Of a stretch of 64,000 nucleotides of DNA, positions 52,921-61,197 are shown piece by piece. How positions within the stretch are numbered: the stretch's first letter is position 1; each line of letters begins with the position of its first letter. Where the stretch lies: the NCBI RefSeq assembly GCF_009735625.1, contig NZ_CP046244.1, positions 992,001-1,056,000 of the forward strand, given 5' to 3'. Made by a program: the position numbers and the translations under genes. Under the pieces are notes generated by a model. The model did not search any database, was not told the origin of the DNA, and saw only the letters and a program-made list of their open reading frames with translations. Source of the DNA: Moorella glycerini. Lineage in GTDB: Bacteria; Bacillota; DSM-521; Neomoorellales; Neomoorellaceae.

Positions 52921-54857
52921 CCCGAGTTCGACAGTTGCTAGGCAAAAATGACTGCTTTCTAGATGAAGAGGCCTTATAAATCAAGGGTTTCCGGTTTCGG
53001 GAAAGCTCAAAAATCAAAAACTGCCTAGGCACACGATTTCGGAATTAAAGCTTGATAACGACATAGTACATGCGCTATAATATAGACATGTACATAAGAA
53101 CTATTTCCCGCAAAAACAAGGACGGCTCTGTTGTCCGTTATATCCAGCTTGCCCACAACGTCTGGGACCCCAAGGCCGGCTACCCGAAAGCCAAAGTACT
53201 CTTCAACTTCGGCCGCGAAGAGGATGTAGACCGGGAAGCCCTGGTCCGCCTGGTAAAGAGTATTACGCGTTTTTTGGGACCGGAAGAGGCTTTACGCACC
53301 CAGGCAGAGTTAAACGGCAGCGCTCCCCTAACTTTTGTCTCCAGCCGGCCTATAGGTGGCGCCTGGGTGTTAAACGAGCTCTGGAACCAGCTGGGTATCA
53401 ACCGCGTTTTAGCCGGGCTGCTGGCCAAACGTAAGTTCCAGGCGCCGGTAGAACGAGCCATCTTCGCTATGGTAGCCAACCGGGCTTTGAACCCGGCCAG
53501 TAAACTTAAGACCGAGGATTGGGTCAGCCACGATGTTTTCATTCCCGGCCTCCCGGACGTGCCGGTGCAAAACCTTTACCGAGCCATGGACTTCTTACTG
53601 GAGGCTGCTGAAGAACTGCAAAAGGATATCTTCTTCTCCGTGGCCCACCTCTTCAACCTGGAAGTCGATCTCCTGTACTTCGATACCACCTCCACCTACT
53701 TTGAAGTGGAAGAGGAGGATAATCCGGAGGACCATAAGCAGCACCTTCGGCGTAAAGGCAACTCCAAGGACCACCGGCCGGATTTACCCCAGGTGGTAAT
53801 CGGCCTGGCTGTCACCAGGGAGGGCCTGCCGGTACGCTGCTGGGTCTGGCCGGGTAACACCGCCGACATGGCGGTAATCGAGCAAGTCAAAAAGGACCTG
53901 GTGGGCTGGCAACTGGGCCGGGTCATCACTGTTGTCGACCGCGGTTTTGCTTCGGAAGACAACCTTCGTTACCTCCAGCGCGCCGGCGGCCACTACATTG
54001 CCGGCGAAAAGATGCGCAGCGGCAAGGATACGGTGGCAGAGGCCCTGGCCCGGCCGGGCCGCTACAAAACTGTCAAGGATAACCTTGAAGTTAAAGAAGT
54101 TATCGTCGGCGACGGCGAAAAAAGGGTACGATATATCCTGGTACGTAACCCTAAAGAAGCAGAAAAAGACAGACTGGAGCGGGAGAAAATCCTGGCCCGC
54201 CTCAAGGAAGAATTAGCGGCCATTGGGGACCTCAAAGGCGAACCCCATACTAAAGCCTGCTGCCAGCTCATTGCCCATCCCACTTATGGCCGCTATCTCA
54301 AGACCGACAAGAAGGGACAACCCTATATCGATGCGGCCAGGGTGAAAGCTGAAGAGAAGCTGGACGGCAAATACCTTTTAAGAACCTCGGACGATACCAT
54401 AAGTGCTGAAGACGTGGCCCTCGGCTACAAGCAACTGCTTGAGGTAGAGGATGCCTTCCGCACCATGAAGCAGTCCTTAGAGCTGCGGCCGGTCTATCAT
54501 CGCCTGAGCGACCGCATCCATGCTCACGTCCTCCTGTGCTGGCTGGGACTGCTCCTAATCCGGGTAGCTGAAACGAAAGTGCAGGATAGCTGGCGGAACA
54601 TCCGCCAGACCCTGGAACGCATGCACCTGGGCGAATTTGTTGGTCCTGAGGGCAGGGTACTCCAAAGGACGGAAACAACCCCGCCACAGCAGCATATCTT
54701 CAAGACCCTTGGGATAAAGGAACCGCCGCAAATAATCGCGGTCGAAACAAAGGCCAGAAAGGGTCCCTAGTAACACGCGCCCAAAAAGCCGATCCCTGAA
54801 ACCCTTGCGCAACAAGCTGTTGCGCTTATTATTCACCTAGCAACTGTCGAACTCGGG
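52921..54857 (+). mobile_element. IS1634-like (IS4 superfamily) element, 1937 bp, 5-bp target duplication
   Basis: Perfect terminal inverted repeats of at least 20 bp start with CCCGAGTTCGACAGTTGC at 52921 and end with the complement at 54857. GATTA flanks both ends (52916-52920 and 54858-54862). One transposase gene fills the element. It splits a DUF4258 gene, whose two halves rejoin in frame without it. Confidence 0.9.
53088..54770 (+). CDS. IS1634-family DDE transposase
   Basis: 560 residues (start MYIRTISRKNKDGS at 53088; six further codons upstream are open). DDE landmarks are LLYFDTTSTYFEVEE (first Asp), VITVVDRGFASEDNLRYL (second Asp) and a C-terminal EVEDAFRTMKQSLELRPVYHR with the glutamate, the usual YREK-like region. 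The frame is intact, so the copy is probably active. Confidence 0.92.
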   Translation: MYIRTISRKNKDGSVVRYIQLAHNVWDPKAGYPKAKVLFNFGREEDVDREALVRLVKSITRFLGPEEALRTQAELNGSAPLTFVSSRPIGGAWVLNELWNQLGINRVLAGLLAKRKFQAPVERAIFAMVANRALNPASKLKTEDWVSHDVFIPGLPDVPVQNLYRAMDFLLEAAEELQKDIFFSVAHLFNLEVDLLYFDTTSTYFEVEEEDNPEDHKQHLRRKGNSKDHRPDLPQVVIGLAVTREGLPVRCWVWPGNTADMAVIEQVKKDLVGWQLGRVITVVDRGFASEDNLRYLQRAGGHYIAGEKMRSGKDTVAEALARPGRYKTVKDNLEVKEVIVGDGEKRVRYILVRNPKEAEKDRLEREKILARLKEELAAIGDLKGEPHTKACCQLIAHPTYGRYLKTDKKGQPYIDAARVKAEEKLDGKYLLRTSDDTISAEDVALGYKQLLEVEDAFRTMKQSLELRPVYHRLSDRIHAHVLLCWLGLLLIRVAETKVQDSWRNIRQTLERMHLGEFVGPEGRVLQRTETTPPQQHIFKTLGIKEPPQIIAVETKARKGP

Positions 54858-55586: not shown

Positions 55587-56687
55587 TCATCTAGTATTAC
55601 TGCTTGAAACACCTGTTGAACCAGTATAATTATATGCCCACGGTTTCTCTAGGGCTAGTTTATAATAAGCATGATCTAAAGTTAACTGGAGCAACTTTTG
55701 CTGCGCATCTGCAAGATTCTTTTCTGCTTCATTGATGTCGCTTTTCGTTGCCATACCTATTTCATATTTAATTTTGGTTACCCTTAAATTTTCTTCTGCC
55801 AGGCGAAGGTTATTTTGAGCAGGAATATAATTTTCTTCCAAGGTTTTTACGCTATTATAAAGAGTGCGTACCAGTTCTTTTACTTGATCTTGGGCCATAC
55901 CAGCTTGGAGCCTTGCGATTTCAATATCTTCATCGCTGGTATTTTCATCCCACCCCTTCAATCTTTCTTTCAATTGGGCATTTTCTATGGCTGACATTAC
56001 GTTCGGGCTCTCATCTAGGGCCAGGGTTTGCTGGGAGGCTAAATCACCTTGAAATGGGCTAAAATCTATCTTATCAACAAGTACGGGTCTTGCATTCTCC
56101 GGGAGGCCGATAAGTAAATTGAGGGCCTTATACGTTTTATCCAGCTCGATCCTTGCTGCTGCCAGGGCCGCCCTGCCGACCGCCAGCTGGGTTTCCATCC
56201 CCATAAGGGCCTGCTTGCTAATTAAGCCATTGGTATAACTAAGCCGTGCATTACTGAGCTTTAAGGCATCATTTTCTACAGTTAAAGTAGCCAGTGAAAC
56301 CTGAGCCTCTTTTTTTAAAACATCATAATAGGCCTTATGAGTTGCCAGAATAACACTATCTTTTACTGCTGCCTGCTTTTTCCTGGCTACTTCATAGCCC
56401 ATCTTGCTCTGCTCCCTGGCGACATAAAGAGGTTCTACGCCGGGAGTATAGTCGGTAGCCCAGTTTGGACTAAACCTGGCCAGGGCATAGGCAGCATCAT
56501 CCTTTAATTCCTCGCTTTTTTGCAATTCAAGCTCGCTTATTTTTAAACTGTCACTATGCAGCAAGGCTTTCTTGATTGCTTCTTCGAGGGTTAATTCCAT
56601 CTCGTTATTTTCTTCGGCCCTAGCAGGCATTACCATCAACATCAAGAACAAGAAAACCACCATAACAATTGTTGGCAGCCGCCGCAT
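55587..56687 (-). CDS. TolC-family outer efflux protein
   Basis: 366 residues: signal peptide (MRRLPTIVMVVFLFLMLMVMPARA), then two OEP repeats rich in coiled-coil helices, including LTLEEAIKKALLHSDSLKISELELQKSEE and LRLAEENLRVTKIKYEIGMATKSDINEAEKNLADAQQKLLQL. TolC-family proteins in Moorella-type cells are compatible with their unusual envelope. ATG 56687 has GGAGTGGGAT upstream; the upstream extension in frame lacks a site. Probably the channel for the adaptors and EmrB, although it is separated from them by the IS1634-like element. Confidence 0.85.
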   Translation of the reverse strand: MRRLPTIVMVVFLFLMLMVMPARAEENNEMELTLEEAIKKALLHSDSLKISELELQKSEELKDDAAYALARFSPNWATDYTPGVEPLYVAREQSKMGYEVARKKQAAVKDSVILATHKAYYDVLKKEAQVSLATLTVENDALKLSNARLSYTNGLISKQALMGMETQLAVGRAALAAARIELDKTYKALNLLIGLPENARPVLVDKIDFSPFQGDLASQQTLALDESPNVMSAIENAQLKERLKGWDENTSDEDIEIARLQAGMAQDQVKELVRTLYNSVKTLEENYIPAQNNLRLAEENLRVTKIKYEIGMATKSDINEAEKNLADAQQKLLQLTLDHAYYKLALEKPWAYNYTGSTGVSSSNTR

Positions 56688-56773: not shown

Positions 56774-56810
56774 GAAAGAAGCTGAGCCCGGGTTTTAACC
56801 CGGGCTCAGC
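56774..56810 (-). terminator. Terminator of the surface protein gene
   Basis: Very stable GC-rich hairpin, arms GCTGAGCCCGGG / CCCGGGCTCAGC extended through the loop bases, followed on the minus strand by TTCTTTC. It lies 17 bases after the stop codon. Confidence 0.85.
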
Positions 56811-56826: not shown

Positions 56827-58998
56827 TTATTCCAGATTCATGGTCACGGTCTGGGTGGCGTCGTCATAGCCGACGCTGGCGCCCAGGGCCTGGGCGATGA
56901 ACCGGAAGGGCAGCATGGTGCGGCCACTGGCAACCTCAGGAGCAACGTCCATGGTCAGGCTGATGCCGTTGACCTTCAGCACGTTGCTGCCGATGGTCAT
57001 CTGGACGGCAGTAGTACCCTTCAGCACGGTCACGGTCTGGGTGGCGTCATCCCAGAAGATGTTCTCCGGATCCACACCCAGGGCGTAGGCGACGTAGCGG
57101 ACAGGCAGGTAGGTCCGGCCGTCTTTTACGTAGGCGGCTACGTCCATGGTGTACTCGGTGCCGTTGACGGTGTAAGTGCTGCTGCCGATGACGAAGGAGG
57201 CTGAACGTTTGGTTGCAGAAACCCCCGAAGCGTTCGTCACAGTAGCTACAGTGCTGGTACTACCGCCAGCTTTTGTCAAGAAAGTACCACTAATTTCCAC
57301 TGTAACGTCCTTAGCTAGGAAGCGGGAATCGACGTCGTAAGCAATGTCTTTAATCTCAATAACGTCAGCCTTAACAGTGCTGAATTTGGTTCCCCATGTA
57401 GCAGCTGCAACCTCAGCAACGTTTGTCCCTTTAGGCGTAGCTACCCACGTAACAGTGACTTTTTCACCATTGATGTAAAGGGTCGGGTTTTTAGAGAAAT
57501 AGATACCATTGGGTAATGTCAGCTTCAGGGTTCCATTAGTGTTAAAGAGATTTTTCCCTGCTTCGGTAATCTTGATATCACCAGCAACCTGATCAAGACT
57601 ATTTACGTTTACGTTCTTCTTATCGGCCTCAAAGGTGGCAACGGGGATAACCTTGCCCAATACAACCTCACCGTTCGGACCGGCGGTACCGCTAATCTCC
57701 ACAACGATGTCGCCAGAAGCATTCGCATCAATATTGACGGTGGGCAGGTGAGTAGAACCATCAAAGGTAACGGGATCAGTAATATTAGTTGGATTAGTCA
57801 CACTAAACCAGATGCTCCGGTCATCGTTATAACGAGTTCCAGCGGCAAAACCAGCAGGAGCAGCAGGTGGGTTACTGGTCCATTTAGCGTTTTTCAGTGT
57901 AAAAACAAGGCTGCCATTGTTGCTAAAGGCACCGGCAAAGTTCTGATCGATCTTAATATCACCCAAGATAACGCCAGCTTGGCCGGGTACACCTTCACGG
58001 TCCTTAGTATCCTCTGCGGTTATGGTAAATTCACCTACAGTCGTAGTCGCAACCACCAAATCGGTATCGCTCAGCTTAGAATTTGAGCTAGCAACGGTGA
58101 TTACGATATCGCCTGAAACACCGGGAGATACATTAAGATAACCGGCAGAATCAAGATCAAACGTCAGCTTCCCACCGATACCTGAAGACGGACTGGTGAC
58201 AGTGTAAGTAAGGGTTTTGTCATCGGTACGCGTTGCGGGACCCACGGCAAGACCCGCGGTGCCAGAAGCCGTTGGGTATGGGCCAGGAGCAGCAACCCAG
58301 GTCACGCCCGGGGTAGCAATTGTTAAGGTGATTGTGTCAGGGGTAGTTGAACTTAGAACGCCAGGTTGATTTTCCTCAATGGTAATATCGGCAACCTTAA
58401 CGCCAAGACCTGCCCCGCTGATCTTCTTGGCACTGGCAGCAGTGGCAGTCAGCGCACCGGCTCCAATCCTAGCGATGACAAGAGTTTTACTCTCAGTCCA
58501 AACCTGGTTGCCATCCTCATCTAAAACCTGCAGCTTAACAGTTGCAGTTACATCACCGGTAGTACCCGACGTGATGTCTAAGTTTGGAACGTCAAAAACC
58601 AGTTGGGTTACAGCAGCAGTAGCATTGTAGACGGTAAACTGCACCGAATCACTGTCGGATGCGACATAAGTAATCGTGGCAGCTGGCGAAGTAGTGACGA
58701 GAGCTTGAACGGCAGCATTAGTGTTGGGTTCGCTGTTCCATTTCGCCCCGCTTGAAAGATCGACGGTTACATAGGTAGTACCTCCACCGGGTTTCTGACC
58801 ATTAAATGTAATATTTTGATCGCCAGCAGCTATAGAAAACCACCCAGCCGGCTGATTAGAAGCATCGGTGATGATCGGATATGCGCTGCTGTACTTAAAC
58901 GGATCTCCGGCAAACGCCGGTACTGCCATGGGAACCAACAACGTTACCATAACAGCCAAGGTTACTAAAATGGCCACAATTTTTTTCGATTTGCCCAC
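56827..58998 (-). CDS. Secreted surface protein with copper amine oxidase-like N-terminal domains at its C-terminus
   Basis: 723 residues: signal peptide (MGKSKKIVAILVTLAVMVTLLVPMAVPAFA), a long Thr/Val-rich beta region (about 30-600) with recurrent DIxI/GDI segments (GVKVADITIEEN, GVILGDIKIDQN and VAGDIKITEAG) suggesting three or more repeated beta domains, and a C-terminal Cu_amine_oxidN1 pair (TMDVAAYVKDGRTYLPVRYVAYALGV and TMDVAPEVASGRTMLPFRFIAQALGA). This is the plan of abundant S-layer-like proteins in Moorella and relatives. It is driven by an ECF promoter nearly identical to that of the neighbouring sigma factor gene and has a 210-base leader. Confidence 0.85.
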   Translation of the reverse strand: MGKSKKIVAILVTLAVMVTLLVPMAVPAFAGDPFKYSSAYPIITDASNQPAGWFSIAAGDQNITFNGQKPGGGTTYVTVDLSSGAKWNSEPNTNAAVQALVTTSPAATITYVASDSDSVQFTVYNATAAVTQLVFDVPNLDITSGTTGDVTATVKLQVLDEDGNQVWTESKTLVIARIGAGALTATAASAKKISGAGLGVKVADITIEENQPGVLSSTTPDTITLTIATPGVTWVAAPGPYPTASGTAGLAVGPATRTDDKTLTYTVTSPSSGIGGKLTFDLDSAGYLNVSPGVSGDIVITVASSNSKLSDTDLVVATTTVGEFTITAEDTKDREGVPGQAGVILGDIKIDQNFAGAFSNNGSLVFTLKNAKWTSNPPAAPAGFAAGTRYNDDRSIWFSVTNPTNITDPVTFDGSTHLPTVNIDANASGDIVVEISGTAGPNGEVVLGKVIPVATFEADKKNVNVNSLDQVAGDIKITEAGKNLFNTNGTLKLTLPNGIYFSKNPTLYINGEKVTVTWVATPKGTNVAEVAAATWGTKFSTVKADVIEIKDIAYDVDSRFLAKDVTVEISGTFLTKAGGSTSTVATVTNASGVSATKRSASFVIGSSTYTVNGTEYTMDVAAYVKDGRTYLPVRYVAYALGVDPENIFWDDATQTVTVLKGTTAVQMTIGSNVLKVNGISLTMDVAPEVASGRTMLPFRFIAQALGASVGYDDATQTVTMNLE

Positions 58999-59091
58999 TA
59001 ATTATTTACCTCCTTGAAAATTTGGTTTTTCTTGGCCCGGGCGGCCAATCTTACCCGCTACTCCCCTCCTTCACTCTGGTTTCCCATACCT

Positions 59092-59124
59092 TGCTGCGAT
59101 TTATTGCTGCGACTGGTGCTGCGA
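59092..59124 (-). repeat. Three TGCTGCGA repeats in the surface protein leader
   Basis: TGCTGCGA at 59092-59099, 59105-59112 and 59117-59124 (TCGCAGCA in the RNA), spaced 13 and 12 bases. They lie in the 5' leader, about 100 bases before the start codon. Role unknown; an RNA or DNA binding site is possible. Confidence 0.6.
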
Positions 59125-59212
59125 TACAGGCAATTATGCCCGGATGAGGAATTTCCTGCGTGCCCGACCAGCATCCCTACTGGCTTGGACAGGTTTTCCT
59201 CACCCAACCAGT

Positions 59213-59245
59213 TTATTAGACACCGCACCGCGGTAAAAAGTTCCC
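59213..59245 (-). promoter_or_regulatory. ECF sigma promoter of the surface protein gene
   Basis: Minus strand: GGGAACTTTTT-N13-GTCTAATAA, i.e. -35 GGAACTT, 17-base spacer, -10 TCTAA. It is the same in both boxes and spacing as the sigma-gene promoter at 59458-59490 and resembles the GGAACTT/TCTGA promoters of ECF sigma-E type factors. Confidence 0.85.
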
Positions 59246-59457
59246 AGGGCCCGTAAAAAATTTTAAAAGGACATATGTAATATAAAGTATAATTTTAACG
59301 GAACCCGCCAGTAAAACGCTCGCCTGAGATATTTGTTACTTTCTGCCAGGTTGCAGTATAGATGGCCCTGCGATATACTTAGTAATGATAGCATGAGGGC
59401 ATTAAAGCATGATTTCGTCTTCTTATAGAAAATTTCCTTACGGATAACGTCCTTCAC

Positions 59458-59490
59458 GGGAACTTTTTGGCTTTCCATATTGTCTAATAA
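59458..59490 (+). promoter_or_regulatory. ECF sigma promoter of the sigma/anti-sigma operon
   Basis: GGGAACTTTTT-N13-GTCTAATAA, matching the surface-gene promoter over 20 box positions. It lies about 40 bases upstream of the preferred sigma start, so the factor activates its own gene. The gap 59246-59457 shows no gene. Confidence 0.85.
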
Positions 59491-59527
59491 GTGTCCGGGG
59501 AATACCGGGCCTCCAGGGGTGTTCTGC

Positions 59528-60121
59528 TTGAACCTTGGGAGTAAAAAGGCGCCGGGCAAAAAAAACGGTGCTGTTTCCTTTGAAGAACTGGTCCTGACCT
59601 ATCAGGATAAGGTATATAACCTGAGCTACCAGCTGACGGGTAACCATAACGATGCCCAGGACCTGGCCCAGGAGGTCTTTGTTAAGGCCTACCTGGGGCT
59701 GGATAAATTCCGGTATGAGGCCGATATAGGTACGTGGTTACACCGCATCACCGTAAATTTATTTTTAAACCTGCGCCGGAAAATAGCCCGCCACCCGGCG
59801 GTTTCCCTGGACGCCCCTCTAGATACGGGGGAAGGGGAGGTTAGCCGGGAAGTAGCCGCCGCCGGGGGTGACCCCCAGGAGCTGGTGGAGGAGCTGGAGC
59901 TGCAGGGCCTTGTCCGGCGGGCCTTAAGGCAGCTGCCGGCGGAGTACCAGGCGGTGCTGGTGCTGCGGGAACTGCAGGGTTACAGCTATGAGGAAATCGC
60001 GTCCCTGCTGGGCTGCCCCCCGGGGACGGTGAAGTCGCGCCTGAACCGGGCGCGGCAGGCCATGAAAGAGAAAGTAATGCAGATGGCAGAGGAGAAGCCG
60101 CCTGAACACAGGCGGCCTTGA
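59528..60121 (+). CDS. ECF (sigma-70 family) RNA polymerase sigma factor
   Basis: 197 residues: region 2 (FEELVLTYQDKVYNLSYQLTGNHNDAQDLAQEVFVKAYLGLDKF), a linker, and region 4 (LPAEYQAVLVLRELQGYSYEEIASLLGCPPGTVKSRLNRARQAMKE). The frame is open to 59480, but that part overlaps the -10 box; the TTG at 59528 has CAGGGGTG upstream. The zinc-finger anti-sigma gene follows after 11 bp. It probably reads the GGAACTT/TCTAA promoters of its own operon and of the surface protein gene. Confidence 0.92.
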   Translation: MNLGSKKAPGKKNGAVSFEELVLTYQDKVYNLSYQLTGNHNDAQDLAQEVFVKAYLGLDKFRYEADIGTWLHRITVNLFLNLRRKIARHPAVSLDAPLDTGEGEVSREVAAAGGDPQELVEELELQGLVRRALRQLPAEYQAVLVLRELQGYSYEEIASLLGCPPGTVKSRLNRARQAMKEKVMQMAEEKPPEHRRP

Positions 60122-60132
60122 GGTGAGGGGTT

Positions 60133-61197
60133 ATGCAGTGCCGTAACGCGCGGGAGTTCTTCTCGCCCTACCTGGACGGGGAGCTCTCCCCGGCGGAAAG
60201 AGAGGTTTTCCGGCAGCACCTGGGCGAATGCCCGGCCTGCTGCAAAGAATTAGAGCGTTGGCGGGATATTTCCCTGGCCCTGCAGGGAATGAAGGCGCCG
60301 GTGGCGACACCGCCGGGCTTCCTGGCGGCGGCCAACACCAGGCTGGCGGCCCGGCAGAGGACACGGCCCTGGCAGGGTATCCGGCGCTGGGTGGCTGCCG
60401 CTGCGGCCGTGGCGGTGCTGGCCGCCGGTTCCCTAAGCTACGCCGCCCGGGGGTTATGGCAGCACCTGCCTGCTCCTGTAGCCAGGGTGCAGCAGGGCGA
60501 TGGCCAGCAGTTAGCTGTTGATAATCCCGATCCGGCCGCGAGGCCGCCGGCGTCAAATCTGCTGCCGGACAGCGGGCACAGCCAGCCGGTAAAGCCGGAC
60601 GTCCAGCAGCCGGACAGCGGCAACCCGCCCGGTAAAAATCAGCTGCCGGTAACTGCGCCTGGCAATGGCGGGGGGCAGCCGGTGACACCGGACAGCGGTA
60701 AGCCGGGCCAGCAACCCACCCGGCTGGCCGGCGGGGAGCCATATACCGCCCGGGCCTTTTTAAGCGCCGGGCGCCAGGCGACCAGTACCATGATAAAAAT
60801 TACCGTAGATGATATAAATGGGACCAAAGCAAAGGCTTTAAGTTTAGCCAGCAGCAGCGGCGCCGCTATTCAGGTCATCGCCGACCAGGACAACGGCCAG
60901 GTGAAGCGGGTAATTTACAAGTTCACCGTGGCAGAAAGCCAGGCCGCCGCCCTCGTGGCTGGATTGAGCCAGCTGGGCCAGGTGATCTCCAAAAATACCA
61001 CCACCCAGGACCTGACGCAGCAGTTCAGCGCCACCCTGGAGCAGTACCAGGCCAAGGTGGCCCAGGTCAATGCCGCTGCCGACGCGGAGGAGAGGGCGAA
61101 GCTCACTAAAGAAGCTAAAGCCCTGGAACAACAGCTCAGTACCTGGGAAGAGGAAACGAAACAGCACACCATCATATTATGGCTGGAGACGAAATAA
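60133..61197 (+). CDS. Anti-sigma factor with zf-HC2 domain and extracellular domain
   Basis: 354 residues: zinc-finger zf-HC2 domain (CRNAREFFSPYLDGELSPAEREVFRQHLGECPACCKEL, H-x3-C-x2-C), one membrane span (WVAAAAAVAVLAAGSLSYAA, about 83-102), a Pro/Gly/Asp linker with repeated PDSG (about 130-200) and a C-terminal coiled-coil domain (about 230-350) of the DUF4349-like type. The cytoplasmic finger would hold the sigma factor and the outer domain would sense envelope state. It is co-transcribed with the sigma gene. Confidence 0.88.
   Translation: MQCRNAREFFSPYLDGELSPAEREVFRQHLGECPACCKELERWRDISLALQGMKAPVATPPGFLAAANTRLAARQRTRPWQGIRRWVAAAAAVAVLAAGSLSYAARGLWQHLPAPVARVQQGDGQQLAVDNPDPAARPPASNLLPDSGHSQPVKPDVQQPDSGNPPGKNQLPVTAPGNGGGQPVTPDSGKPGQQPTRLAGGEPYTARAFLSAGRQATSTMIKITVDDINGTKAKALSLASSSGAAIQVIADQDNGQVKRVIYKFTVAESQAAALVAGLSQLGQVISKNTTTQDLTQQFSATLEQYQAKVAQVNAAADAEERAKLTKEAKALEQQLSTWEEETKQHTIILWLETK

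Follow-up and report, generated by a model that had tools for sequence, protein, structure and literature searches.

Twin ECF-type promoters in front of a sigma/anti-sigma operon and a divergent S-layer-type gene: a candidate regulatory pair in Moorella and related anaerobes

Introduction

On a 64,000-nucleotide stretch of the Moorella glycerini genome (the window), the gene of an ECF sigma factor lies divergently to the gene of a large secreted protein, here called SURF, and the same promoter-like boxes stand in front of both. The locus raises the question of whether one sigma factor reads both promoters and so ties a surface protein to its own operon. In a literature search with subscription journals mostly outside its coverage, the control of S-layer production in anaerobic Firmicutes turned out to be sparsely covered, and nothing on point came up for DUF4349 anti-sigma factors or for a link between ECF sigma factors and S-layer genes. 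Our comparison of the locus with related genomes indicates that the adjacent ECF sigma factor very probably reads both promoters, that of its own operon with the anti-sigma factor and that of the S-layer-type SURF gene.

Results

The sigma-side promoter is a 33-bp site, GGGAACTTTTTGGCTTTCCATATTGTCTAATAA, at 59458-59490 (+), and has the form GGGAACTTTTT-N13-GTCTAATAA. The SURF-side site, GGGAACTTTTTACCGCGGTGCGGTGTCTAATAA, runs from 59245 to 59213 (-) with the same boxes and spacing. The two lie 212 bp apart, and their 13-nt spacers have 2/13 positions in common. An earlier note, made from the letters alone, had described such twin boxes at identical spacing, 33 bp each, with different spacers, before the sigma gene and, divergently, before a large secreted protein gene. 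The boxes, spacing and spacers were borne out letter for letter, and the coordinates and domain assignments of the genes agree with the described placement. When the window was dinucleotide-shuffled 100 times, the 33-bp site was never matched, even with up to 3 mismatches allowed. Regulon scans were done as pattern searches. The genome search proposed in the note was run as GGAACTT-N15..18-GTCTAA and matched only at these two sites in the whole genome; perfect copies of GGGAACTTTTT-N13-GTCTAATAA in the 3.56-Mb genome are also limited to these two. A DDE transposase gene (IS element) lies near the locus, at 53070-54770 (+) of the window.

The sigma gene (59528..60121, +) encodes 197 amino acids from a conserved TTG start, preceded by a conserved AGGGGTG. 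A TTG at 59480, mechanically listed as the start, was rejected since it is situated at the edge of the -10 element and the ORF cannot begin there. The sigma leader (59491-59527, +) carries a small, conserved CCGG..CCGG hairpin just 5' of the ribosome-binding site. The protein matches Sigma70_r2 at 21-88 and Sigma70_r4_2 at 128-179, and the remaining Pfam matches overlap the same HTH. Its best NCBIfam matches are SigW/SigE/RpoE-type models, all under the equivalog cut-offs; it scored 138.2 bits against the SigW model (cut-off 209) and 123.4 against the RpoE model (cut-off 236.2), so it is not called an equivalog of either.

The co-directional anti-sigma gene (60133..61197, +) starts 11 bp past the sigma stop, and this pairing is conserved. 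Its 354-aa product has a zf-HC2 domain (4e-12), a transmembrane helix at about 85-106, a disordered linker and a DUF4349 domain at about 211-354. The HxxxCxxC motif (H29, C33, C36) is invariant across 37 homologues. The AF2 model shows a zinc-finger helical domain and the helix 85-106, which we take as transmembrane; its linker is disordered and its external domain folded. The zinc-finger part matched RslA in Foldseek with a probability of 0.95 but an E of only 0.5, a weak match, while Foldseek gave nothing under E 0.02 and no convincing structural match for the DUF4349 sensor. By domain and HxxxCxxC motif the protein is a zf-HC2 anti-sigma factor of class I and a putative inhibitor of the sigma factor. 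We also observed a duplicate sigma/anti-sigma operon in one relative (G001:C1:563447 and 577440); the M. glycerini genome itself carries a decayed, stop-containing piece of an anti-sigma gene (G000:C1:1102783).

SURF (56827..58998, -) is a secreted protein of 723 amino acids with a GTG start, a signal peptide recognised by inspection and two C-terminal Cu_amine_oxidN1 domains. It is a homologue of Swol_0133, described as the top-abundance membrane-fraction protein of Syntrophomonas wolfei, a predicted S-layer protein of 78,098 Da (PMC3582634), and listed also among the most abundant proteins by NSAF (PMC4324140). By this homology the Moorella protein is likely of S-layer type. Read from the TTG at L063:10801, the SURF ORF of genome G035 encodes a protein with a calculated mass of 78,098 Da, exactly the published value for Swol_0133, and the promoter letters of G035 are those of the S. 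wolfei locus L181. An ATG 71 codons upstream of the mass-matching TTG restores a signal peptide (L063:10588-13026), which suggests that the start codon of Swol_0133 is misannotated and that the annotated start omits the signal peptide. This would explain the absence of a signal-peptide prediction for Swol_0133.

The promoter region has already been in use in vivo. Pcao, the promoter of Moth_2343, is called constitutive and is used in the metabolic engineering of M. thermoacetica (PMC10823632). The published primers have exact matches in genome G005, where they enclose a 600-bp fragment with both the motif and the leader (L136:8965-9564). By its letters, Pcao is thus the putative ECF-type promoter of SURF together with its leader.

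The 5' leader of SURF is long (58999..59212, -), and most relatives have one of about 200-300 nt. In Moorella the first 81 nt (59132-59212) form a conserved hairpin element. A covariance model, R2, found one strong copy (E below 1e-17) per genome in 11 genomes, always at SURF, and detected the Desulfovirgula leader (L154), which was outside the training set, with an E of 1.6e-4. Rfam gave no family for the leader with E up to 1 in the window and up to 2 in six relatives; one match, to Chlorobi-1, was sub-threshold (E 0.43). The words GAGGAAA, GCAGGAA and GTGTAGAATAT are common to the Pelotomaculum and Moorella leaders, and these shared words suggest a structure that the two groups may have in common. 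R1, a covariance model built on the Pelotomaculum leaders, detected none of the Moorella leaders in searches of 1 Mb and of 21 genomes; applied directly to one, it scored no more than 2.1-2.9 bits, so a single RNA family across both groups is not established. A candidate pseudoknot in the leader, CUGGUU/AACCAG, was dropped since it is broken in G001.

A TolC/OEP homologue (55587..56687, -; OEP 6e-24) comes after SURF in most relatives. Its AF2 model (pLDDT 88.7) is a confident all-helical TolC fold with zero barrel strands and only short links, at 76-87 and 247-254. The protein therefore has the helical domain of a TolC outer-membrane factor and is predicted to be without the transmembrane beta-barrel. 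The lineage is presumed to have a single membrane, and in it a TolC homologue predicted to be barrel-less stands behind an S-layer-type gene. It is tied to SURF by adjacency only, with a terminator-like hairpin of 13 bp (56781..56810, -) in between. About 45 kb off in the same genome lies a paralogous cluster of anti-sigma2, SURF2, OEP2, HlyD and RND genes (L066, G000:C1:1092000-1110000). The paralogous module also occurs in L127, L128 and L129, and some genomes have sigma2, HlyD and RND close to it. The GGAACTT..GTCTAA site was absent from this module in L066, L127, L128 and L129, including before sigma2 and SURF2.

Conservation of the promoter pair was followed in 40 relatives with the exact pattern GGAACTT-N16-GTCTAA. 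Besides M. glycerini itself, 12 of the 40 (8 of the genus, 4 of the family) have exactly one match per strand, and the reversed pattern gave 0-2 matches in each of these 12. In the locus maps one copy is at sigma and the other at SURF, except that in G013 the second site precedes a signal-peptide ORF truncated by the contig end; G007 has the pair and one additional site. The motif pair was absent from genomes without a sigma ortholog, and G014 and G020, with paralogous sigma genes only, have no site. Across 15 genomes the boxes are invariant (maximal information) and the spacers nearly free, the twin spacers within one genome having a mean identity of 29%.

The SURF-side site accompanies SURF when the gene has moved. 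SURF is 2.7, 5.4 or 6.7 kb from sigma in G003, G006 and G010, 18 kb in G005 and about 550 kb in G009, and the site still lies upstream of it. The two-site arrangement is seen in G019 as well, where the target is an SLH protein encoded about 27 kb from sigma. One-mismatch sites (L005:1501-1529 and L007:1501-1529, both -) are kept in part of the genus before exported-protein genes, one of which carries a Cu_amine_oxidN1-like stretch. Near-match sites of the M. glycerini genome lie at G000:C1:436771 and 2621423. Sigma may thus have additional weak targets beyond the perfect sites, and a statement of exactly two promoters is valid for perfect sites only. The sigma autoregulation and surface-protein target held likely in the earlier note gain comparative support from the invariant boxes, the free spacers and the site that travels with SURF. 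Its "closed local regulon" holds for the perfect sites and may be less than closed if one-mismatch sites act as weak targets.

To see how far the arrangement extends, 84,980 species genomes were scanned with the sigma alignment, which gave 79 loci; of the first 53 of these, the 52 that were usable entered the motif counts. The 52 loci span Moorella, Pelotomaculum, Desulfotomaculia and Syntrophomonas. The exact sigma-side motif was present in 41 of 52, a divergent motif within 600 bp in 28 and both in 25, with 8 further sites elsewhere, and the reversed pattern was found 0 times in 803 kb. About a fifth of the 52 have no exact sigma-side site, and variants exist. Nearly all second sites are followed by a SURF homologue of about 700-860 aa, one by an SLH-domain protein. 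These counts support a conserved regulatory pair, a putative two-promoter regulon for an S-layer-type gene that is wider than the earlier note had claimed. Upstream of SURF, the loci L167-L172 have two divergent sites in tandem, separated by about 90-120 bp. Many of the more distant ECF loci (L203-L225) have a similar motif ahead of the following gene, where the sigma gene ends, at about +509 to +530 relative to the sigma match.

Discussion

We propose that the sigma factor would activate its own operon, including the membrane anti-sigma factor, in a positive autoregulation, and that the second promoter would drive the divergent major S-layer-type gene through its long structured leader. Read-through from SURF would probably express the TolC-like gene behind it. 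The zf-HC2 anti-sigma factor would hold sigma at the membrane, and its external DUF4349 domain would report the state or need of the envelope and release sigma, so that S-layer supply could be matched to need. We infer from the co-occurrence, the proximity and a -35 box of RpoE type that this sigma factor recognises both sites; the direction of signalling is presumed, and the signal sensed by the anti-sigma factor is a guess. Since the two sites are the only perfect copies in the genome and the arrangement recurs in many related anaerobes, the coat appears to own a private switch.

Twin sites with identical boxes at a distance of 212 bp could also have arisen when one promoter segment was recently duplicated locally, with only one of the copies functional. 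However, spacers that average 29% identity beside boxes invariant in 15 genomes do not look like a recent copy, and the SURF-side site persists 2.7-550 kb from sigma and in other gene orders, which makes a duplication extremely improbable. It is somewhat easier to imagine, although still quite unlikely, that another ECF sigma factor such as the paralogous one of the second module, or several with overlapping specificity, reads both promoters. The genome has 19 Sigma70_r4_2 matches and the paralogous anti-sigma/SURF/OEP/HlyD/RND cluster. A second zinc-finger ECF pair carries a GGAAC...CGTCTAT site before its anti-sigma gene. Nevertheless, the relatives with the paralogous sigma only have no site, module-2 loci have none before sigma2 or SURF2, and the nine other sigma-region matches that were examined showed no GGAAC-type site upstream. 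The adjacent sigma factor is therefore the best candidate for both promoters.

What the adjacent sigma factor responds to is a separate matter. The surface gene could be driven by envelope stress or damage rather than by routine S-layer supply, since stress sensing usually relies on a layout like this one, a zinc-finger membrane anti-sigma factor and its external domain, and positive autoregulation suits a switch. On the other hand, constitutive, abundant expression better fits routine supply than a pure stress response, and the "constitutive" Pcao, whose sigma dependence is putative, fits a housekeeping over a stress role. We consider the stress reading possible although doubtful. At the other end, the circuit could be one of S-layer homeostasis, in which the sigma regulon is its own operon and the S-layer gene only, DUF4349 senses the completeness of the S-layer, a further layer of control comes from the structured leader RNA, and SURF and the barrel-less TolC homologue together make an export conduit through the S-layer that replaces the outer membrane. 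Taken as a whole, this extended scheme is speculative and we hold it to be improbable.

The proposed coupling of the sigma factor to SURF gives a specific and testable answer for S-layer control: one sigma factor, one membrane anti-sigma factor and two promoters in four groups of anaerobes. Identification of Pcao as ECF-type leads to the prediction that this sigma factor and its anti-sigma factor govern the strength of the promoter. The very abundant and so far unexplained Swol_0133 would gain a place in a regulatory circuit.

Swol_0133 is a SURF homologue with the same divergent promoter pair in front; in the available part of its source it is treated as an abundant protein and its regulation is not described (PMC3582634). 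TolC/OprM outer-membrane factors have their helical fold in common with the OEP homologue (Foldseek E 3e-10), but differ from it in the beta-barrel strands, which the OEP model is without. RpoE1 of T. tengcongensis, also a thermophilic anaerobe, is an ECF sigma factor autoregulated in vitro with the membrane anti-sigma factor Tt-TolB downstream, which has another sensor domain and for which the available part of the source describes no S-layer target (PMC3397946). SigW/RsiW of B. subtilis resembles the pair in its zinc-finger anti-sigma factor, and SigW is the sigma factor's best NCBIfam match (138 bits, cut-off 209), whereas the SigW -35 box is ATTGAAACCTTT, unlike the GGAACTT found here. The SigW regulon is large, and the RpoE regulon of E. 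coli is broad. The RpoE/RseA system differs from the present one in that here only two perfect sites occur per genome and the anti-sigma factor carries DUF4349. The likeness to RpoE/RseA lies in a sigma factor that here probably regulates itself, a membrane anti-sigma factor, a probable envelope target and a -35 box that is GGAACTT in E. coli RpoE promoters as well (PMC8103513).
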